Assembly (NCBI GenBank): GCA_003246755.1
Contig: QKDC01000139.1
Coordinates: 1-54,310 of the forward strand
DNA: 54,310 bases
Origin: Gemmatimonadota bacterium
GTDB taxonomy: Bacteria; Gemmatimonadota; Gemmatimonadetes; Gemmatimonadales; GWC2-71-9
Direction of reading: 5' to 3'
Positions 33,618 to 49,788 of the stretch are shown in pieces; position 1 is the stretch's first letter; each line of letters begins with the position of its first letter. The notes under the pieces are model-generated. The model was not told the DNA's origin and did no database searches. It was given only the letters and a program-made list of their open reading frames with translations. The translations under genes and the position numbers were made by a program.

Positions 33618-35387
33618 TCAGGTCGTGACGCCCACGCGGGGGAGCGTCCGCAGGAGCCAGGCAGCCGCGACGAGCGCAATAGCAGTAAAGAGAAGACCCG
33701 AGCTGGTCCGTCCGTACAACAACGCCCCTGTGGCGAAGAGTGTGCTGTAGACGACGGCACAGCCCAAGAACCATGCAAGTAATCCCACGGAGACGCTCCC
33801 GGCAGGGACGTTCACTCCGACGTTCACGACCTTGTGCCAGGAACGTCCCATCGGTCGGATTTGGTCGTAGTACACCTGTAACTGTGCGCGATCGGTGGCC
33901 GGCGTCAGAAGCGTGACGCTGAGCCAGACCACCGTCGTGACGGCCACGCCGACCAGGAGAGCCACCGTGGGGTCGATCGGTGCGAACCCCAGCCGAGTGT
34001 GGATCAGATTGAAGTACACCGCGACGAGGAACGAGATGGCCATCCCTGCGATCTCGCTCCAGGCATTGATCCGCCACCAGAACCATCGCAACAAGTAAAT
34101 GAGTCCGGTGCCGGCTCCGATCTGCAGCATGATCTGAAAGGCTTGAAATGCGTTTTCGAGCCAGAGAGAGACGACCGCCGCGAAGACAACCAGCATCACC
34201 GTGACGACTCGAGCCATGGTGACGTAGTGCCGCTCGGTTCGTGCAGGCTGCATGAAACGCCGATAGAAATCATCGACGATGTACGAGGCACCCCAATTGA
34301 GGTGTGTGCTGATGGTCGACATGTAGGCGGCGGCCAGCGAGGCGACCATGATGCCCAGGATCCCGTGTGGTAGGTAGACCAGCATGGCGGGGTAGGCCAG
34401 GTCGTTCCGAACGATGGAGGGATCGAGGTTCGGGAACTTCGTCAGGATGTCGGAGACGTCAGGATAGACGATGATCGAGGCCAGGGCGACAATGATCCAG
34501 GGCCAGGGCCGGAGTCCATAGTGGAGGATGTTGAACAGCAGGGTCGAGAGCAGTGACTCCTTCTCATTGCGTGCGGCGAGCATTCGCTGCGCGACGTACC
34601 CCCCTCCTCCAGGTTCGGCCCCAGGATACCAGGCACTCCACCATTGGACGGCCACCGGGACGATGAAGACCGCAGCCGCTGTTCGCCAATCTCCAAAGTC
34701 GGGCAAGAGGGAGAGCTTGCCTACCACCTCGGGGTGGGAGAAGAGCCCTGAAAGACCACCAACCTCCGGGAGTGAGACGGCGTAGTAAGCGGCCGCAAAC
34801 GACCCAATCATGGCAATGGTGAATTGGATGGCGTCCGTCAAGACCACTCCGCGCAACCCGGCACTGGCGGCGTAGAGGGCCGTCAAAGCACTGGCAACCA
34901 GCACCGTGGTGTACTTGTCCACCCCGAGCAGGACGCCGGCGATCTTGATGGCGGCGAGGTTGACCGACGCCATGATCATCGCGTTGAAGAAGAGGCCGAG
35001 GTACACGGCGCGAAAGCCACGGAGAAAGGCGGCGGGCTTGCCGGAGTAGCGGAGTTCGTAAAACGCGATGTCCGTGAGTGCGTCTGACCGTCGCCAGAGT
35101 CTGGCGTAGAAGAACACCGTGCACATTCCAGTGATCAAGAAGGCCCACCAGACCCAGTTCTGGCTCACCCCTCCGGAGCGAACCAGATCGGTCACCAGAT
35201 TCGGTGTGTCGGTCGAGAACGTGGTTGCAACGAGAGAGACACCGAGCAGCCACCAGGGTAGGGAACGCCCAGATAAGAAGAACTCCTGCCGGCCTTCTCC
35301 AGCACGCCGGCTCACGGCGAGACCGATAGCGACGGTGAGCAAAGCGTAGATCGCCACCATCATCCAATCGAGGCCGGTCAGCTGCAT
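33618..35387 (-). CDS. Sodium:solute symporter (SSS family)
   Basis: 589 residues with 13-14 membrane segments. Typical pattern: MQLTGLDWMMVAIYALLTVAIGLAVSRR, then EFFLSGRSLPWWLLGVSLVATTFSTDTPN (unwound helix 1 with Na+ site residues), VNLAAIKIAGVLLGV and GASYIVDDFYRRFM after the mid-protein STISTHLNW, which is the Na2 Ser/Thr region. The family moves sugars, myo-inositol, amino acids, nucleosides or bile acids with Na+; the neighbours suggest a sugar here. The 5' end overlaps the upstream nucleotidyltransferase gene by 10 bp. Confidence 0.92.
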   Translation of the reverse strand: MQLTGLDWMMVAIYALLTVAIGLAVSRRAGEGRQEFFLSGRSLPWWLLGVSLVATTFSTDTPNLVTDLVRSGGVSQNWVWWAFLITGMCTVFFYARLWRRSDALTDIAFYELRYSGKPAAFLRGFRAVYLGLFFNAMIMASVNLAAIKIAGVLLGVDKYTTVLVASALTALYAASAGLRGVVLTDAIQFTIAMIGSFAAAYYAVSLPEVGGLSGLFSHPEVVGKLSLLPDFGDWRTAAAVFIVPVAVQWWSAWYPGAEPGGGGYVAQRMLAARNEKESLLSTLLFNILHYGLRPWPWIIVALASIIVYPDVSDILTKFPNLDPSIVRNDLAYPAMLVYLPHGILGIMVASLAAAYMSTISTHLNWGASYIVDDFYRRFMQPARTERHYVTMARVVTVMLVVFAAVVSLWLENAFQAFQIMLQIGAGTGLIYLLRWFWWRINAWSEIAGMAISFLVAVYFNLIHTRLGFAPIDPTVALLVGVAVTTVVWLSVTLLTPATDRAQLQVYYDQIRPMGRSWHKVVNVGVNVPAGSVSVGLLAWFLGCAVVYSTLFATGALLYGRTSSGLLFTAIALVAAAWLLRTLPRVGVTT

Positions 35388-36972: not shown

Positions 36973-37689
36973 GTGGCCAGCCGTGCCTCTGACGTGCGTG
37001 CCGATGTCCGAAGGTCTGCCGATCCCGTTCGCGCCAAGCTGGCAAAGGGCTACTTCAAGACGGGGCCCGGAGAGTATGGGGAGGGTGATCGGTTTCTGGG
37101 CCTCAAGGCAGCCGATCTCCGCCGTGTCGCGGCAACTTACCGCGACCTCCCCCTCCCAGAGGTTGAACGACTCCTGGCCTCACCTTGGCACGAAGATCGA
37201 GCGGCGGGTCTCCTCATCATGGCTCACGCGTACGCCAAGGCCGATGCGAAGGGTCAAACCGCCATCTATCGGTGTTACCTGGCACACACCGATCGCGTCA
37301 ACAACTGGGATCTCGTGGACATGTCTGCACCACACATCGTGGGGAGGCATCTCGCCCACCGGAGCCGAAGGACCCTCTACCGCCTCGCTCGCTCGGGAAA
37401 TCTTTGGGAACGCCGCATCGCCATCATCTCAACGTTCCACTTCATTCGAGATGGCGAGTTCGATGAGACCCTGGCTTTGGCCGGACTTCTTCTCGGCGAA
37501 GAGGAAGATCTCATCCACAAGGCCGTCGGGTGGGCACTGCGCGAGGTGGGTAAGCGGGACCGCGGTGTCCTGGAGGCGTTTCTCGACGCGCACGCCGAGC
37601 GGATGCCCCGGACGATGCTTCGGTACGCCATCGAGCGATTCCCGCAGCGGCTCAGGAAGCGGTACTTGGCCCGTCGCCGATTGCGCTAG
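36973..37689 (+). CDS. AlkD-type DNA alkylation repair protein
   Basis: 238 residues from a GTG with GGAGGAA upstream. The HEAT-like helical repeat pattern is evident. Three conserved AlkD positions are present: the Trp-Asp pair in VNNWDLVDMSAPHIVG, the Arg in NLWERRIAIISTFHFI and the Trp in VGWALREVGKRD, which in Bacillus cereus AlkD form the cationic, aromatic DNA-binding cleft. The protein should excise N3- or N7-alkylpurines without base flipping. The stop codon TAG shares its bases with that of the convergent outer-membrane gene (CTAG). Confidence 0.9.
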   Translation: MASRASDVRADVRRSADPVRAKLAKGYFKTGPGEYGEGDRFLGLKAADLRRVAATYRDLPLPEVERLLASPWHEDRAAGLLIMAHAYAKADAKGQTAIYRCYLAHTDRVNNWDLVDMSAPHIVGRHLAHRSRRTLYRLARSGNLWERRIAIISTFHFIRDGEFDETLALAGLLLGEEEDLIHKAVGWALREVGKRDRGVLEAFLDAHAERMPRTMLRYAIERFPQRLRKRYLARRRLR

Positions 37690-40600
37690 GTGGGAGGTCG
37701 CCGTTGGCCCACGCCGGGGCGCCCTCCAAACCGGGTTGCCGGATTCCGGACACCCTCCGGGAGCTTCGACCACTGAAAGGGCGTTAGAAGACTCCGGACC
37801 TCGTCCAACGCCTTGGCCAGGTGGGTTCGCATCTCCTGGAGTCTCGGCTGAAGGATCTGGGCCATCTGCCGGAAGTCGGGGTTGGCGCCTGCCTTCTGGA
37901 GTTCCTCGCTGATGGCAGTTGCGAGGGAGAGATTCGTCGCGGCGAGTGAGTCGCGGATCCTCTCCAGTTGAGTGACCTGCCGCTCATCGAGCAGGAGCGT
38001 ATCCCGCATGTCGAGCGCCGCCGCTGCCGGATTGGGCATGATCGCGTTCAATCTGGTCAACAGTTCATCCGGATTCCCAGCCGCCCGGGCCATGTCGGCA
38101 AAGGCGCCGCCTCCTGGGCCATCACCACCGCCGGCACGCCCCCCACCGGCGCCTCCAGCGAGGCCGCCCCGCCCGCCACCGCGTAGACCATCCACCGCCG
38201 CTCGCCCACGATCCGGACCGATGGTCATTCGGACCTGGATGCCGATCTGGAACGGTGAGCGGAGTGCATTGGCCCCACTGCCCGTGGCACCGAATCGCTC
38301 ATTGACCGAGTACTGGAACGCACGAGTGTCGCGATCGAACCCGGTCACGTAGAGCAGGGTTGGGTCAGGCCTGAGGGTCAGTCCCCATCCCTTGGCGTCC
38401 TCCGCTCCGTGAACCAACTCATCCACGCCACGGAGCATGTTGACCGTCGTGAGTGACATGGCGAGACGCCTGCCGAGACCAAGGATGTTGGGGCGCCAAT
38501 TGAGCTGAAGATCGAACGTGCCCTGCCAGGGACCCGTGCACGAGTTTCTCGCGGCGACCACTCCAATCTGGCTTCCGAGACAGGAGGAGATCCCGCCGCT
38601 CGAGCTTGCCAGCAAACGCTCCATGCTCTCGGCAACGGACGATCCACTTCCCCCGGGGAAGACGAACGCGCGATCGTTTCGCGATCCATCGCCGTTGATG
38701 TCCGATCCGACCATCGGGGTGAACGGCGATCCCGACATCAGGCGCCCGATACCCGTGAGTTCAAGGGACACTCCGAACGGGTACGTGATGGTGGCGAGGA
38801 ACGAATGTCGGCGCTCGAAGTCGCTTCGCGCCCATTCCCGCACGTTTGGATCTCCAGCGGTCGTGGCGCCCGAGAACCCGTCGCCCCCTCCGCGGGAACT
38901 CGACAGCTGGTCTCGAGAACGCTGCCAGGTATACGACCCCTGCAGTTGGATACCGCGACGGGTAAACCCGCCGAGTGAGACGGTGAACTGCTCAGACTGA
39001 GATGCGAGATCGGAGCGTGTCTCCAGGATCTGACCAAATCGCGAGTCGATGCGTGACCCCGTGAAGCGGACCGCGCCGCTGGCAGGATCGATGTCATCGA
39101 GACTGACGTACACGGGACGGCTTCCTTCCTGGGTGAGTTGGAACTGCGGAGCCGACAGGAGATTCAAGTCGGTGAAGCCATACTGGCTGACCCCACGGGC
39201 AAGGGAACCGCTGACTGAGAGCCGGAGCAGGTTGGTGAGGTTACGCTGGAGACTGAGCGAACCACGCCACGATCTTGGCGCGGCGTAGTCGTCCGCGAAG
39301 AGGACGACCGTTCGAGCAGGCGCACGAGGAGCCGGTCCCCCGAAGCCGAGACACGAAGTGGGGATGTTGGCCTGGTCGGCCCCATAGGCCGTCCAATCCG
39401 GGATTGGTACTCCGGCTCCGATACAAGAGATCTCCGCCTCGGTGGATTCCAGTCCCGGAGCTGCCTGGGCCGACGCCACGAGGTTCGCCGGGATGGGGGA
39501 GCGGAATTCACCGATTCCCCCGCGCAGGATGAGTGTTGGGGCGCGGCCGACGCCGAAACCCTCTCCCCGCGTGTTTGGATTGCTCGCCCCGATGTTCCAG
39601 GTGAACCCCATACGTGGACTCACATGCCATTCGCTGGGCAGGGCGTCCGTGCGTCGACCGAAGACCGAGTCCACCACCGGGTTGTATTGCGGGGTTCCCG
39701 AGAACCTGGATCCTTCGACCCGGATCCCGTACGTCAGTTGGAGTGGTCTCGACGCGTACCAGACATCGCCCAGGTAGGCGGCATAGTCGAATGCTGTCGA
39801 GTTCCGCTCCGTAGGATTCAGAGTTCGGCGGAACGATGCGGGACGATTGGCTTCGAAGTCGGCCAGGGAGTTATAGGAGAAGGTCCCAAAGACGTTTCCG
39901 GTCTGGCTGTTGGTGGACCGACTCGACCGAAACACGACACCGAGCTTGACGCGATGCTGACCGGTACCGGGGATCCAGGACAGCTCATCCGCGATATCCA
40001 AGGTCTTGGACCTGGAGGTCTGTATCGCCTGGCCGCCACCAAAACCGAGGGTGGTCACTCCCTGGGTGCCGTCCGGCAGGTCGGACGCGATCTGAACCCG
40101 TCCGCCCGGCAGCTGCGTGAACGGTGTGTTGTTTCGACTCGATCCGGAGAGATACACCCGACCCTCATTGAGCAGGCTTACGCCGAAGCGAGAGGTCATG
40201 GTCGCCATCCCCCCGCCACCAGAGTTGGTGTTTGACCCCCCTGTCTGGGGGAGGGCAAGCGATCCCACGCGGGTCGGATCGATGACGGTACCGCGCCAAT
40301 CTCCTCGAAGCGTCATCGTGTGGGCATTGCCGAGGAGATAGTCGAATCGCATCATCCCCGAATAGCTGTTGCGGTCCCTGTTGTCGATGGCGGGGACGCT
40401 GAGCGGGTCAATCCCGGCGGATGACACCAACGCCATGAATCGGCCTACGGAGTCGGGACTGACTCCAAGTCGTGGCAAGTCGGTGGGGGTCGCCGAAAGC
40501 AGATTGGGTTGAGGGTCGTTGCGGACCTGGGCCAGGCCGGAAGCAAACACGAACAGCCGATTACGTGCGATGGGACCACCCAAGCCGCCACTCACCTGGT

Positions 40601-41441
40601 GCTGGGTGAACGCATCGCCAAAGGGTGATGTCTCATCCCCGGTTTCGATGGCGAGGGCATCGTCTCGCAACACGTAGCCGCTCGATCCCTGCACGACGTT
40701 GCTGCCACCACGTGTGGTGGAGGAGATGAGGCCTCCGGAAAAGCCGCCTCGAGAGACATCGAATGTGCTGGTGATGACGCGAGTACTCCGAACGCCATCC
40801 GGCGGAATCAACCCGCTGCCGAAGAGCAACCCATCGAGGGTGATGGCATTCGCGTCGTCCCGCTGTCCCGCTACCGAGAACGCGTTGGCAGTCGAATCGC
40901 TCCCGGGAATGCCCAGGATGCCTGGGACCAAGGTGGCGAGAAGATTGACGTCAGCGGTCTCGATGGGGAGACGAGAAACGAGGTCAGGTGTGAGCAGCCG
41001 TTCGGTCGACCCGGGGGTCGGCCGCTCGGGGATCTGAACGGCTCCGCGACGGGCGGTGACCTGAAGCTCATTCAGGGTGACCGCTCCCTCGGTGAGTTGG
41101 ACATTCCAGACCAACCGATCTTCGTCTTCGTAGCGCTGGAGGAGAGCTTGACGCGGCGATAGGCCAATGGCGCGGGCCGTCACCCGGTACTGACCGCCCC
41201 CATCGGGGAACAGGATGGTATAGCGACCCCGGGCATCGGTGCGGGCCGAACGACTGATCTGGGTTTCGAGAGAGACCGCATCCACCACGGCATCGGCCAC
41301 GGGGGTACCATCGGCGGTGGTGACCACGCCAGTGATGATATCAGTCGTGAGTCCGACCTGACCGTACAGACCGCTTGCTGGCAGTGAGGTCACGGCGACA
41401 ACGATCAGGAGGCGTTTCAGGACTGCGAGCGATCGTGTCAT
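37686..41441 (-). CDS. Oar/TonB-receptor-like outer-membrane protein with Spy/CpxP-like C-terminal domain
   Basis: 1251 residues with a signal peptide (to about 27). A carboxypeptidase-regulatory-like domain (IITGVVTTADGTPVADAVVDA, about 34-110) precedes a plug region with LNELQVTARRG and about 900 residues of beta-barrel strands and long loops (about 200-1085), as in Oar proteins. The barrel seems to end in PFQIGIQVRMTIGP. A Gly-rich linker (about 1088-1113) and a ~115-residue helical domain with LLLDERQVTQLERIRDSL and LTPFQW (1219-1224) follow; that domain resembles the Spy/CpxP LTxxQ family. The C-terminal residue is not the usual aromatic of barrel proteins. The natural substrate is unknown. 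Confidence 0.88.
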   Translation of the reverse strand: MTRSLAVLKRLLIVVAVTSLPASGLYGQVGLTTDIITGVVTTADGTPVADAVVDAVSLETQISRSARTDARGRYTILFPDGGGQYRVTARAIGLSPRQALLQRYEDEDRLVWNVQLTEGAVTLNELQVTARRGAVQIPERPTPGSTERLLTPDLVSRLPIETADVNLLATLVPGILGIPGSDSTANAFSVAGQRDDANAITLDGLLFGSGLIPPDGVRSTRVITSTFDVSRGGFSGGLISSTTRGGSNVVQGSSGYVLRDDALAIETGDETSPFGDAFTQHQVSGGLGGPIARNRLFVFASGLAQVRNDPQPNLLSATPTDLPRLGVSPDSVGRFMALVSSAGIDPLSVPAIDNRDRNSYSGMMRFDYLLGNAHTMTLRGDWRGTVIDPTRVGSLALPQTGGSNTNSGGGGMATMTSRFGVSLLNEGRVYLSGSSRNNTPFTQLPGGRVQIASDLPDGTQGVTTLGFGGGQAIQTSRSKTLDIADELSWIPGTGQHRVKLGVVFRSSRSTNSQTGNVFGTFSYNSLADFEANRPASFRRTLNPTERNSTAFDYAAYLGDVWYASRPLQLTYGIRVEGSRFSGTPQYNPVVDSVFGRRTDALPSEWHVSPRMGFTWNIGASNPNTRGEGFGVGRAPTLILRGGIGEFRSPIPANLVASAQAAPGLESTEAEISCIGAGVPIPDWTAYGADQANIPTSCLGFGGPAPRAPARTVVLFADDYAAPRSWRGSLSLQRNLTNLLRLSVSGSLARGVSQYGFTDLNLLSAPQFQLTQEGSRPVYVSLDDIDPASGAVRFTGSRIDSRFGQILETRSDLASQSEQFTVSLGGFTRRGIQLQGSYTWQRSRDQLSSSRGGGDGFSGATTAGDPNVREWARSDFERRHSFLATITYPFGVSLELTGIGRLMSGSPFTPMVGSDINGDGSRNDRAFVFPGGSGSSVAESMERLLASSSGGISSCLGSQIGVVAARNSCTGPWQGTFDLQLNWRPNILGLGRRLAMSLTTVNMLRGVDELVHGAEDAKGWGLTLRPDPTLLYVTGFDRDTRAFQYSVNERFGATGSGANALRSPFQIGIQVRMTIGPDRGRAAVDGLRGGGRGGLAGGAGGGRAGGGDGPGGGAFADMARAAGNPDELLTRLNAIMPNPAAAALDMRDTLLLDERQVTQLERIRDSLAATNLSLATAISEELQKAGANPDFRQMAQILQPRLQEMRTHLAKALDEVRSLLTPFQWSKLPEGVRNPATRFGGRPGVGQRRPPT

Positions 41442-45064: not shown

Positions 45065-45462
45065 GAGGCACCTCCAGTAAACCACGCCCGCCAGTTGGCC
45101 GCCAGGTGCAAGCCTGCGCCCAGGGTCCCCAGCAACACACCCACCGAGATCAGTGGCCGGTCGAGAGTACCGAGTGGAGACTCGAGGAAGAATGAAGCCG
45201 TGAAGATCGTGGGCGTGAGGGCGAGGATGATCGAACCGGACTGCTGCAGGCGTTCCTGTCCCGCCGGTGCGGGTTGGAGATGGATCGCCAGGAGTCCGTT
45301 GATCAAGGCCGCAAACAGCAGATAGATGTGGGACGACCGATAGAGCGTATGCACCACGAGGTCTTCGTCGTAGACGCTCGGGAGGAAGAACTTCATATAG
45401 ATCCCGGTCATGGCGAACACTGCCAGGAAGGCCATGGCAACGAGCTTGTGCGCGCTGTTCAT
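45061..45462 (-). CDS. Small four-helix membrane protein
   Basis: 133 residues from the ATG at 45462, preceded by GGAGTGAG; the upstream extension to 45567 overlaps the divergent gene's start region and looks non-coding. There are four hydrophobic segments: HKLVAMAFLAVFAMTGIYM, SSHIYLLFAALINGLLAI, SGSIILALTPTIFTASFFL and LISVGVLLGTLGAGLHL. No catalytic motif was seen; a cluster of aromatic and His residues near the membrane faces (HTLYRSSHIY) may be structural. Its stop overlaps the next gene's start (ATGA), so its translation should feed that of the sortilin-like gene. Unknown function. Confidence 0.65.
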   Translation of the reverse strand: MNSAHKLVAMAFLAVFAMTGIYMKFFLPSVYDEDLVVHTLYRSSHIYLLFAALINGLLAIHLQPAPAGQERLQQSGSIILALTPTIFTASFFLESPLGTLDRPLISVGVLLGTLGAGLHLAANWRAWFTGGAS

Positions 45463-45565
45463 TCTCGTACTCACTCCGGCGCGAGGGCAAAGAGGGTTGG
45501 GGATGTACTGCACGACGATAAAGAATACGTTAGAGCGGGCCCGGGACCATAACCAGGAGCTTTTC

Positions 45566-46489
45566 ATGGAACGCCGTCACTTCCCCATCACGTCAACCAT
45601 GCTCGTCGGGATCGCCCTCTTGGCGGGCTGTAATGCAGCGCCCCCCCCGGACGCTCCCGAGGCCCTACTCGGTCGCTGGGACTTGACGGTGACCGATAGT
45701 GCCGAATCCTGGCCACTTTGGCTCGAACTCACCAATGACACCATGCTCTCGGGCCGCTTCCAGCCACGAGGAGGTCATGCCCTCCCGATCGAGGATATCG
45801 TCCTGGAAGGTACGTCGCTGGCCTTTGGAATTGCGGAAAGAGAGTTGCACTTCGAAGCGGGCCTCGAGGATTCGGTCCTCTCAGGCACCGTCACCGACAT
45901 GTACGGAGGACCGTTCCGCTTCACGGGTGTCCGGGCACCGACGCTGGAGCGGACCGTGGAACCCGAATGGGGAGAGGAAATCGATCTCCTGGCCGACGGA
46001 CTCGAAGGGTGGGTGGTTCGCCGAGCGGAGAATGGCTGGTCCTTCTCCGATGGAATCCTGAACAACAGTGCCCCGTCGAGCGACCTCATCAGTCGCCCGC
46101 ACTTCACGGATTTCCGACTCCATGTGGAGGTCAATGTGCCTGCGGAGGGTAACAGCGGCATCTACCTCCGTGGGCGTCATGAGGTCCAGGTACAGGATGA
46201 CTTCGGCAACGAGCCACAGAACCGTCGGATGGGGGGAATTTACGGGCAGGTGACGCCGACCGTTCTTCCGGCGAAGCCCCCTGGAGAATGGCAGACTTTC
46301 GACATCACCTTGATCGGCCGCCGAGTCACGGTGGTTCTCAACGGGGTGACGATGATCGAGGACGCCGAGATTCCGGGGATTACCGGCGGAGCCCTCGACA
46401 GCGATGAAGGCGCACCGGGCCCCATCATGTTGCAGGGAGATCACACCGGCATCCAGTACCGGAATATTCGCATTACCCCGGCACGCTAG
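45566..46489 (+). CDS. DUF1080 (3-keto-disaccharide hydrolase-fold) lipoprotein
   Basis: 307 residues from the ATG at 45566 with AGGAGC upstream. The lipobox LLAGC (C22) predicts an envelope lipoprotein. An N-terminal beta domain (LLGRWDLTVTD...) precedes the DUF1080 jelly roll: WSFSDGILNNSAPSSDLISRPHFTDFRLHVEV, then NSGIYLRGRHEVQVQDDFG and WQTFDITLIGRRVTVVLNGVTMIEDAE, all characteristic of the concanavalin-like 3-keto-glycoside hydrolase family. The usual Glu/Asp/Arg clefts appear intact. It should cleave a glycosidic bond of a C3-oxidised sugar in the periplasm, in step with the Gfo/Idh-type enzymes nearby. It is divergent from the small membrane protein. Confidence 0.85.
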   Translation: MERRHFPITSTMLVGIALLAGCNAAPPPDAPEALLGRWDLTVTDSAESWPLWLELTNDTMLSGRFQPRGGHALPIEDIVLEGTSLAFGIAERELHFEAGLEDSVLSGTVTDMYGGPFRFTGVRAPTLERTVEPEWGEEIDLLADGLEGWVVRRAENGWSFSDGILNNSAPSSDLISRPHFTDFRLHVEVNVPAEGNSGIYLRGRHEVQVQDDFGNEPQNRRMGGIYGQVTPTVLPAKPPGEWQTFDITLIGRRVTVVLNGVTMIEDAEIPGITGGALDSDEGAPGPIMLQGDHTGIQYRNIRITPAR

Positions 46490-46504
46490 GAGGTGACGGG
46501 TGGG

Positions 46505-47722
46505 TTACTCTAGGATCGAGAGGTCCATACTCGAACCCGAAATGACCGCCTGATTCGCGAGGATGCCCACAATCGTGCTCCGGACACCCTCGGCAGCCGT
46601 ACAGGCCACCGGTGTTCCTTCGGTGACACTCTTCAGGAAATCCGCGAGCGCATAGTAGAGTGAGGGGTAGGGCAACCCGACTCCGTCCTTGAGCCTCCCC
46701 TGGGCGGCCAGTTTGGTGGCATCCGCGACCAGAATGATCCCCTCGTCCTGAAAGAACTGCTGTCGAGTCGCATAGACCTCCCAGCCCTGGGTCGGGGCGT
46801 CCACTTCCTTGAAGAGCCATCCGTGTGAGTCGGCGAGTTTGATGGCGGCGTTCGACCCATGGAACACCTCATAACGACCACCAAAGGAGTTGGCCAATGT
46901 CGCTTCATAGTGGAAGGACGGCCCATCGTCCCACGCAACATCCACGTGAACGGTATCCGGTACTTTTCGGCCGTCACGATGAAACCGGACTCCGCCTGCA
47001 CCGTGGGCACTACTCGGGGAGGTTCCACGGAACCACAGGGCCACGTCGAGCTGGTGAGATCCGATTTCACCCGCGAGGCCAATGGATACCTCGGGGTCGA
47101 GTCGCCAATTCACGGCGGCCGCCCCATCCGCTTCGGTGGAGGGGAACCGCCAACTGGTCTTGTGATGGTAATGACCTCCCATCGAAATGAGGTTGCCGAG
47201 CTCGGTCTGAAAGAGCGGTTGGGCGCGACGGTAGACCGGGTTGGATCGTGCCTGGAAGCCGGCATGCACCACACGGGAGCTGGCGCCCGCAGCCCCTGCG
47301 ATCGCCTGACAATCTTCCACCGTCGCGGCTACCGGGGCTTCGCAATAGACGTGACGCTCGGCGGCGATCGCGGCTTCGACGATCTCGCGGTGCAGGTGGG
47401 TCGGTGTGGCCACAAACACCGCTGGGATGTCCTCCATGTCGAGCACGGCTCGGAAGTCCTCCACTGCTTGAGATCCGGGGGCGCGAGCCTGGGCGCTACT
47501 CAGCCTTGAGGGACTCGTGTCACAGACCGCGCCGATGGTGACATCGGGGAGTTTCTGGAGTTCGGTGATGATTGCACGGCCTTGCCGACCGGCCCCGATA
47601 AGTCCGACACGCACTGGTTCCACCAACCTGACGGGTGCCAGGTCGAGTGTTCGAGGAAGGAGCGAGATCCCTGCAAGCGCGCCGGCGGTATCCGCCAGGA
47701 ATGCCCGGCGACTCTTCGACAC
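46505..47722 (-). CDS. Tat-exported Gfo/Idh/MocA oxidoreductase with altered EKP motif
   Basis: 405 residues. The Tat signal has SRRAFLA at residues 4-10. The Rossmann nucleotide-binding turn is GLIGAGRQGRA (40-50). The conserved CEKP position reads CEAP (127-130), so the lysine usually important for catalysis in Idh-type members is absent. The C-terminal substrate domain keeps GEIGSHQLDVALWF, with His and Asp in the place of the family's DxGxHxxD box. Zymomonas glucose-fructose oxidoreductase shows that a Tat-exported enzyme of this family can carry its NAD(P) bound. It probably oxidises or reduces a sugar in the periplasm; the changed motif makes full activity uncertain. It ends 15 bp from the DUF1080 stop, convergent. 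Confidence 0.88.
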   Translation of the reverse strand: MSKSRRAFLADTAGALAGISLLPRTLDLAPVRLVEPVRVGLIGAGRQGRAIITELQKLPDVTIGAVCDTSPSRLSSAQARAPGSQAVEDFRAVLDMEDIPAVFVATPTHLHREIVEAAIAAERHVYCEAPVAATVEDCQAIAGAAGASSRVVHAGFQARSNPVYRRAQPLFQTELGNLISMGGHYHHKTSWRFPSTEADGAAAVNWRLDPEVSIGLAGEIGSHQLDVALWFRGTSPSSAHGAGGVRFHRDGRKVPDTVHVDVAWDDGPSFHYEATLANSFGGRYEVFHGSNAAIKLADSHGWLFKEVDAPTQGWEVYATRQQFFQDEGIILVADATKLAAQGRLKDGVGLPYPSLYYALADFLKSVTEGTPVACTAAEGVRSTIVGILANQAVISGSSMDLSILE

Positions 47723-47731
47723 TCGTCGTCC

Positions 47732-48457
47732 CTACGCGAAAGACACGGACCACTCAGGTCCGAGGTTGGGGGGCCGTGTTCCCAGCACCAGCGCGGCGGT
47801 CGACCACGCATCGGCGAGGGTCGCGGTGGGCCCGACCACCGCTACACGACGCGGGGCGGGGATGACGGCTTTCGTCCGGGGGTCTCGTGTCGGATTGGGG
47901 TTGTCTCGCCACGCCGCCGACACCGAGAGAGCCTGATCCTGAAGAAACACGTTCGATCCGCTCCGAGGTTCGCTCAGGCTCACCCCCCACCCAGCTCCAC
48001 CGGGTTGGGTACCGATGCCGAGTGCGCTGCTCGTCCCCCCGTGCAGGAAGGCGGACTCCACGGCGTGTTCCCGGAGGACACTGGCCGCACGATCGAGAGC
48101 GAACCCCTTGGCGATACCCCCAAAGTCGAGAGCGATCCCGGTCCCACGAAGGGTGATCGTGGAGTGATCCTCATCCAGGTCCAGGTCGGCCATCGCTCTT
48201 CCTCCCGAAGGATCGAACGCGCCGTCAGAGGCGTGGCAGACGTCACGTGCCGAACGCATCAAAGCGAAGGTGTCCCGATCGACGCGGACGCTGGATCCGG
48301 GTTTGGAACGCCGGAGATGGGTCAAGAGACTCGAGGAGGAGAAGCGATTGAACCGCTCGTGGCACCAGCGGATCTCCTCAAGGGCGAGTTCTCCAATACT
48401 GCGAAGCCAAGTTGGGTCTCCTTGATCGCCGAGGATCAATTCGAAACGCGTACCCAT
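47732..48457 (-). CDS. ApbE-family FAD:protein FMN transferase without visible signal peptide
   Basis: 241 residues if started at MGTRFELILG (48457). Alternatives are a CTG at 48481 that overlaps the upstream stop as CTGA, or a GTG at 48535 deep inside the neighbour. Family motifs are present in order: AMGTRFE, CHASDGAFDPSGG, LDFGGIAKGFALDRA (Mg/FAD site), HGGTSSALGIG and TLADAWSTAALVLG, carrying the DAxxTA metal box. ApbE attaches FMN covalently to Thr/Ser of partner proteins and is normally an exported lipoprotein of 300 or more residues; here no export signal is seen with any start. It is sandwiched between two Gfo/Idh genes. No target FMN-binding domain was spotted in the window. Confidence 0.82.
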   Translation of the reverse strand: MGTRFELILGDQGDPTWLRSIGELALEEIRWCHERFNRFSSSSLLTHLRRSKPGSSVRVDRDTFALMRSARDVCHASDGAFDPSGGRAMADLDLDEDHSTITLRGTGIALDFGGIAKGFALDRAASVLREHAVESAFLHGGTSSALGIGTQPGGAGWGVSLSEPRSGSNVFLQDQALSVSAAWRDNPNPTRDPRTKAVIPAPRRVAVVGPTATLADAWSTAALVLGTRPPNLGPEWSVSFA

Positions 48458-48477
48458 GGCCTCGTGGGCGAGTGCGA

Positions 48478-49788
48478 TCAGAGTCTCTTGACCTTTCGGG
48501 TCCGAGGGTTGTAGGCAAAGGCTCCACCTTCCCACATCGACCGCGCGGCGAGATCAACGATCACCATGACCTTGGTACCGAGTTCCACTGTGCTCGCTGT
48601 CGGTGTGCGCGTCCGGATCGCCCGGAGCCACTGCCGACGGAGCTCATCTTGGTCGTCTCCGTGATCTTCCCCCACAATGGTCTGCTCGTCGAGTTCGTCG
48701 GCGTAAAGCCGCTCGGGACGCAGGACGGCGTTTCGGCCGCCCACAAACAGATTGCCCTTGTGTCCTCTGATCACCGTTTGCAACCCGAGCTCGTTGGCCG
48801 TCGAGCCGGCCACGATCATGGTGTGCTCCCCTTCGAACTCAATGGTCAGGTTCACTTGGTCGTGGTTTTCCATCGCCTTGTCGACATAGTGCCCCCCCGA
48901 GGCGATCACTCGAACCGGCCAACCCATGTTCAGGGCCATGACCAGCGGGGTGATCTGATGCACCAGAAGATCGCCGATGATGCCCGTGGAATACCGCTTG
49001 TACCGGCGCCAGCGAGCGTAGACTTCGGGATCCCACTTGGCTTTGCCGGACGGTCCACACCAGGCATCCCAGTCGAGGTTGACACCGGGTTGCCAGGCGG
49101 GATCGATACCATAGTAGAGCCACTCACCATCCTTGGAGTTCCGGCAATAGCTCGTCTGGCTCCACACCGGTTTTCCGATGGCGCCATCGGCAATGAGGCG
49201 TTGGGCCTCGCGATAACTCGCGATTGTGACGAACTGGGTGCCGACATTGATGATGGTACCGGGGTTCGCGCGCTGCACATCCCAAAGTCGCAGCGCGTCC
49301 TTGAGATGAAGCGTCATCGGCTTTTCGACATAGACGTCCTTGCCGGCGGCCACGGCATCTTCCGCCATCTTCGCGTGCCAGTGTTCGGGGGAGGCAATCA
49401 GGACACCGTGCAGGTCAGTGCGTGCCAGGAGGTCGAGGTAGCGTCGGTAGGTGGCCGGTGGCGCTCCTTGGACGTCCTCCACCTTCTTGCTTGCCGCGTC
49501 GAGTCGCGGTTGGCAGACATCGGCCAGGGCCTCTATTCGAACCGGTTCGCCCTGATCCCGGGCCAGGCGGAGGAACGCATCGACGTGTCCGGTCCCCATC
49601 CCACCCGTCCCGATTACGCCGATCCGGAGAGCCTCACCCTGTGCCAACGTGGCACGCGGCACAGCGTTCGGTAGCGGACGAGGGTCAGCAAAGACCTCGT
49701 CGACCGGGAGGTGGGCAAAGAGGCCAGTGGCGGTCGCCGCGCCCACTGTTCGTTGCAGGAAGTCACGACGGGATCTCGAGTCACTCAT
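48478..49788 (-). CDS. Tat-exported Gfo/Idh/MocA oxidoreductase
   Basis: 436 residues. Tat signal SRRDFLQ (6-12) and a 30-residue linker precede the Rossmann fold GVIGTGGMGTGHVDA (57-71). The VEKPMTL motif with Lys156 is intact. The C-terminal domain has GDLLVHQITPLVMAL (catalytic His) and many aromatic residues for sugar binding (WDAWCGPSG, EVYARWRRYKRYSTG). This larger form resembles enzymes in glycoside oxidation clusters of Bacteroidota, Planctomycetota and Gemmatimonadota. It should oxidise a sugar hydroxyl with bound NAD(P). It starts two bases after the TIM-barrel gene stop and is followed by the ApbE gene. Confidence 0.92.
   Translation of the reverse strand: MSDSRSRRDFLQRTVGAATATGLFAHLPVDEVFADPRPLPNAVPRATLAQGEALRIGVIGTGGMGTGHVDAFLRLARDQGEPVRIEALADVCQPRLDAASKKVEDVQGAPPATYRRYLDLLARTDLHGVLIASPEHWHAKMAEDAVAAGKDVYVEKPMTLHLKDALRLWDVQRANPGTIINVGTQFVTIASYREAQRLIADGAIGKPVWSQTSYCRNSKDGEWLYYGIDPAWQPGVNLDWDAWCGPSGKAKWDPEVYARWRRYKRYSTGIIGDLLVHQITPLVMALNMGWPVRVIASGGHYVDKAMENHDQVNLTIEFEGEHTMIVAGSTANELGLQTVIRGHKGNLFVGGRNAVLRPERLYADELDEQTIVGEDHGDDQDELRRQWLRAIRTRTPTASTVELGTKVMVIVDLAARSMWEGGAFAYNPRTRKVKRL

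Follow-up and report, generated by a model that had tools for sequence, protein, structure and literature searches.

In BAM substrates the polypeptide usually ends with a strand of the pattern GXX-aromatic-X-aromatic, and it is at this C-terminal strand that folding by BAM starts (PMC13067283). The receptor gene described here raises the question of what it means when a large outer-membrane barrel is followed by a further domain: what the added domain is, how it was acquired, what became of the last strand, and what the domain may do for its barrel. The window, i.e. the whole stretch of 54,310 nucleotides that was analysed, comes from a draft Gemmatimonadota assembly (3.15 Mb in 190 contigs). 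An open reading frame on its minus strand (37686-41441, stop included) encodes a receptor of 1251 amino acids. The region 37689-38180 of the same strand, in which a sequence-only reading had recognised a Spy/CpxP-like domain behind an outer-membrane barrel, corresponds to residues 1088-1251, i.e. to the C-terminal part of this protein.

The receptor and its parts

By its sequence this protein belongs to the Oar-type TonB-dependent outer-membrane receptors. Two Pfam families pass their cut-offs, CarboxypepD_reg (PF13620) with 46.9 bits against 32.3 and OMP_b-brl_4 (PF25183) with 185.8 bits against 30. No Pfam match to Plug (PF07715) was listed for the window receptor, and in its relatives this family stays under the cut-off (E 0.001 in L003, E 0.0078 in L047). 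A TonB-box-like stretch, TLNELQVTA, was noticed by eye only. The parts of the gene are as follows.

37686-41441, minus strand: whole receptor gene, 1251 aa (open reading frame; orthologues with 43-61% barrel identity)
41361-41441, minus strand: signal peptide, residues 1-27, MTRSLAVLKRLLIVVAVTSLPASGLYGQ (sequence inspection)
41145-41336, minus strand: periplasmic N-terminal extension, CarboxypepD_reg, residues 36-99 (PF13620, E 3.7e-12)
40719-41024, minus strand: putative plug-like region, residues 140-241 (motifs SVAGQRDDANAITLDG and STFDVSRGGFSGG, by inspection)
38496-40718, minus strand: beta-barrel, residues 242-982 (PF25183 OMP_b-brl_4, E 1.9e-54)
38220-38258, minus strand: last barrel strand, residues 1062-1074, SPFQIGIQVRMTI (aligned with relatives of both kinds, tailed and untailed, and with Bacteroidota outgroups ending in NPFQLQIGLRYGF)
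38070-38219, minus strand: Gly/Arg-rich linker, residues 1075-1124 (sequence; length variable among relatives)
37731-38069, minus strand: LTXXQ (Spy/CpxP-like) helical domain, residues 1125-1237 (Pfam, profile-profile comparison, AF2 model)
37977-37991, minus strand: first LTxxQ-type motif, LDERQ, residues 1151-1155 (Q1155 identical in all 37 tails)
37773-37787, minus strand: second LTxxQ motif, LTPFQ, residues 1219-1223 (Q1223 identical in all 37 tails)
37689-37730, minus strand: Gly/Arg-rich C-terminal end, residues 1238-1251 (sequence; most close orthologues end similarly)

The Gly-rich linker that had been proposed to follow the last strand is present, but it starts a little earlier than had been supposed: the conserved PFQ anchor places the last strand at residues 1062-1074, so the linker begins at about residue 1075. 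Its length differs widely among the tailed receptors.

The N-terminal extension, the plug-like region and the large barrel are common to the window receptor and Oar-type receptors such as Oar of Myxococcus xanthus. The window receptor differs from these in having an extra helical domain at its C-terminus and no aromatic residue at the end of the beta-signal. N-terminal architecture was the sole criterion by which a survey classified 34,893 TBDTs (PMC6434023). In the literature that we searched, we found no description of the barrel-LTXXQ fusion, of its fixation in much of a phylum or of the accompanying loss of the aromatic. Both parts, the Oar-type receptor and the LTXXQ domain, are known; their combination is a new architecture.

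The tail as an LTXXQ domain

The membership of the tail in the LTXXQ family is well supported at the sequence level. PF07813 matches the window tail with E 7.4e-5 and 23.8 bits, just under the cut-off of 24.3 bits, and it exceeds the cut-off in the orthologues L036 (31.6 bits) and L047 (27.7 bits), where barrel and LTXXQ match are parts of one polypeptide. In both of these proteins CarboxypepD_reg, OMP_b-brl_4 and LTXXQ are each above the curated cut-off. Tails from the genomes G003, G016, G029 and G039 also pass it, and 17 of the 37 homologous tails match PF07813 at E<0.1. The two motifs that had been named, LDERQ..QLERIRDSL (residues 1151-1166) and LTPFQW (residues 1219-1224), are both present. 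In the alignment of the 37 tails, many of which are less than 25% identical to the window tail, the two LTxxQ glutamines are the sole invariant columns, and the distance between them is mostly 67-71 residues as compared with 73 in the E. coli proteins Spy and CpxP. The W that follows the glutamine of the second motif is invariant in the 19 close orthologues (19/19), and so is the QW..(V/L)P signature to which it belongs. Two tails, L050 and L044, are shortened in the middle (37 and 50 residues between the glutamines) and keep both motifs.

The tails were also compared with 20 stand-alone LTXXQ proteins of related genomes, found independently by Pfam. The hhalign comparison of the 19 close-orthologue tails with this set gave a probability of 98.1% (E 1e-13, score 76, 99 columns), and the alignment puts both LTxxQ motifs in register. 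Forty column-shuffled control profiles reached at most 1.2% (score at most 15) and the reversed tail profile 1.5% (score 16). Shuffling in blocks of 11 columns, with the motif blocks left intact, gave up to 96%, which means that most of the profile signal comes from the motifs and the columns around them. The tails of more distant paralogues match the stand-alone profile as well (94.8%). Against a profile of just two sequences, Spy and CpxP, the tail profile scored 10.9%, which is below significance, and searches of the PDB sequences with the tail profiles returned only coiled-coil and designed-bundle noise.

The AF2 model of the tail, built from two sequences only, is all helical and contains a hairpin (pLDDT 82.5, pTM 0.76). 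The first motif opens a helix of 31 residues, which is followed by a turn, a helix of 29 residues and the second motif. A full-length model, likewise from two sequences, was too poor for the barrel (pLDDT 29.8) and contained the same tail helices as the tail-only model. Taken together, the sequence profiles and the all-helical, hairpin-containing model support a Spy/CpxP-like domain C-terminal to the barrel. A four-helix cradle of the Spy/CpxP kind is no more than a candidate fold for the tail, since no PDB chain was matched significantly by the tail model in Foldseek (best E 1.2). What the tail and Spy/CpxP (PF07813) have in common is the pair of LTxxQ motifs at nearly equal spacing, a helical structure with a long hairpin, as predicted for the tail, and a secreted compartment. 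The tail differs from them in being tethered to an outer-membrane barrel, Spy and CpxP being small soluble proteins, and the tails of the close orthologues carry the conserved QW..(V/L)P.

Distribution of the tail and state of the last strand

The number of relatives with such a tail, which the sequence-only reading had left to be counted, is large. The tail profile matches 138 of the 200 Gemmatimonadota genomes sampled (E<=1e-3), with a maximum of 12 matches in one genome; the weaker matches in other families may include stand-alone LTXXQ proteins. Among the roughly 150 best matches listed, all but about 12 lie in frames of at least 1000 residues, the size of a tailed receptor. Seven short frames were inspected and proved to be contig ends or interrupted receptor genes. 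The exception among the short frames is L053 (G027:C1, 7042-7812, plus strand), a secreted protein of 257 amino acids in which a signal peptide precedes CarboxypepD_reg, the latter joined directly to an LTXXQ-like tail, and which has neither plug nor barrel; a barrel-less protein of this type occurs once in 41 genomes. Small stand-alone secreted LTXXQ proteins (L075, L076 and L078, on G027:C16, G029:C27 and G033:C4) are found in the same genomes as tailed receptors, and the tail is therefore no replacement for the soluble family.

The related genomes encode two kinds of barrel that belong to this receptor's Pfam family, untailed (mostly 960-1170 aa) and tailed (mostly 1220-1370 aa). The window genome has one tailed receptor and several untailed ones. 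The closest named relative that we found is from a Gemmatimonadetes MAG (L003), and the cultured Gemmatirosa kalamazoonensis (KBS708) encodes a protein that is 45% identical. In quick maximum-likelihood trees, calculated from the barrel regions alone and without bootstrap, a single branch separates 38 tailed from 24 untailed receptors (SH-aLRT 100), and the split is unchanged, again with SH-aLRT 100, after the addition of Gemmatirosa and four Bacteroidota relatives. The distances between tails follow the distances between barrels (Mantel r 0.89; 999 permutations, null maximum 0.15), which indicates that the tail was inherited together with its barrel. Divergence is faster in the tail, where identity to the window protein is 29-43%, than in the barrel, where it is 43-61%. 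It is present in every complete member of the clade that was examined and absent from the four Bacteroidota relatives examined, all of them plasmid records. By this evidence the fusion arose once, in an ancestor of the tailed Gemmatimonadota receptors.

The two groups also differ in the last strand. In the untailed Gemmatimonadota receptors an aromatic residue lies within the last two residues in 22 of 24 cases, and three of the four Bacteroidota relatives likewise end in an aromatic signal. At the corresponding site the window protein reads SPFQIGIQVRMTIGPDR, with M and I in the two aromatic positions, and the PFQ anchor aligns without gaps between it and its relatives. Among 40 tailed receptors, the second position of the homologous strand is aromatic in two and the first in eight. 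The tailed receptors have thus lost the aromatic that normally ends the beta-signal. E. coli OmpA is an instructive comparison, as in it, too, a periplasmic domain follows an outer-membrane barrel on the C-terminal side. Its barrel is small, the added domain is a peptidoglycan-binding OmpA domain and not LTXXQ, and an aromatic GVSYRF is retained at the end of the barrel, before the periplasmic domain. An added C-terminal domain does not, therefore, abolish the signal by itself. We note that the tailed receptors share one ancestor, so that the coincidence of tail and altered strand counts as one evolutionary association and not as forty.

Possible roles of the tail

The reading that we tentatively favour is that the tail acts in cis, as a holdase in the biogenesis of its own receptor; both the chaperone activity and the action in cis are conjectural, though the built-in chaperone that the sequence-only reading had suggested is plausible. 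From barrel topology, the tail should be periplasmic and should adjoin the last strand. The flexible Gly-rich linker would then tether the LTXXQ domain on the periplasmic side of the barrel, next to the strand at which BAM-dependent folding is expected to start, and the tail could keep the unfolded barrel soluble or help to present it to BAM. E. coli Spy is known to bind unfolded OMPs, and OmpX forms partial beta structure while it is held (PMC8546600). It is this property of Spy, together with the initiation of BAM folding at the C-terminal strand, that makes a cis-acting holdase the favoured explanation. A tethered chaperone may also have allowed the canonical terminal aromatic to be lost, although this connection between tail and beta-signal is conjectural too.

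Several observations speak against a cis-acting holdase. In structure, no significant similarity of the tail to Spy or CpxP emerged. Spy is active as a dimer, and a tethered Spy-like copy would have to dimerise or to work otherwise. The core of the tail is near neutral in charge, as opposed to the positive concave face of Spy (PMC8144458). Bacteria with untailed receptors manage without the tail, and the gain of the tail and the loss of the aromatic, as one ancestral event, may be coincidental. The more far-reaching proposal, namely a receptor family that has no canonical aromatic beta-signal and relies on the attached Spy-type domain for its delivery to BAM or for its folding there, seems to us rather unlikely. 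If it were true, it would mean that a barrel carrying its own assembly chaperone had become fixed in much of a phylum. The subject touches on two questions, by what means BAM recognises a last strand that lacks the usual aromatic signal and whether chaperones can be provided in cis. The tailed, aromatic-less clade amounts to a natural experiment, as it can be set against untailed relatives that are often encoded by the same genomes; Gemmatirosa kalamazoonensis KBS708, a cultured isolate, also has copies of the tailed receptor.

The closest rival, and a plausible one, is that the tail acts after assembly as a docking module in the periplasm, binding the N-terminal extension, TonB, a partner, a second receptor copy or a polypeptide cargo. 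CarboxypepD_reg and the tail should share one periplasmic face, and the barrel-less L053 consists of just these two domains. The QW..(V/L)P signature, being specific as well as invariant, looks more like part of a set interface than of one that accepts many partners. Dimers are common among LTXXQ domains, which bears on the binding of a second receptor copy. In Myxococcus, an Oar-type receptor is required for protease secretion (PMC6434023), which also speaks for this rival. A docking partner encoded nearby is not apparent, however, as no neighbour gene family is conserved among 20 receptor loci, and the barrel-less protein was met only once.

It is improbable that the tail is a passenger, i.e. 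an old and harmless read-through fusion whose strand lost its aromatic because it was no longer terminal. The divergence of the tail, faster than that of the barrel, and the variable length of the linker speak for a passenger. A mere passenger is nevertheless unlikely because both glutamines are invariant in 37 deeply diverged tails and no loss is seen within the clade, the short cases inspected being contig ends or broken frames. Even the tails that are shortened in the middle retain both motifs.

A metal or stress sensor that resembles CnrX or ZraP and signals via the receptor (a metal sensor was one of the functions suggested by the sequence-only reading) is disfavoured and in our estimate very unlikely. 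CnrX and ZraP belong to the same broad family of helical hairpins, and structures of CnrX, an LTXXQ-related sensor, recur in the Foldseek top 50 for the tail, the similarity in fold being weak, non-significant (TM 0.24-0.45) and confined to CnrX. The tails differ from these sensors in that they carry no conserved metal ligands: there is no Cys in any of the 37 tails, His makes up 0.7% and Met 2% of the residues, both lower than in stand-alone LTXXQ relatives of the same phylum, and no metal-ligand column is conserved. No regulator is conserved nearby either. Metal sensing was therefore rejected.

Least credible of all is an unrelated helical segment that is LTXXQ-like by composition, as the coiled-coil noise of the PDB profile searches and the sub-threshold Pfam score of the window protein are set against several orthologues above the cut-off, a profile match far beyond the shuffled and reversed controls, and two motifs in register at the right spacing.

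With respect to the genomic surroundings, a DNA-alkylation-repair gene (PF08713; 36973-37689, plus strand) is convergent with the receptor gene and overlaps its stop codon by 4 bases. The genes around the receptor at 33618-35387 and 45410-49788 include a sodium:solute symporter, a 3-keto-disaccharide hydrolase, GFO/IDH/MocA-type oxidoreductases and ApbE, which suggests a region of sugar-derivative catabolism. Four untailed Bacteroidota receptors (L186, L187, L188 and L189) adjoin genes for alkaline phosphatase, phospholipase C, phosphoesterase or beta-propeller lactonase, a hint of a phosphate-scavenging role in that untailed branch.
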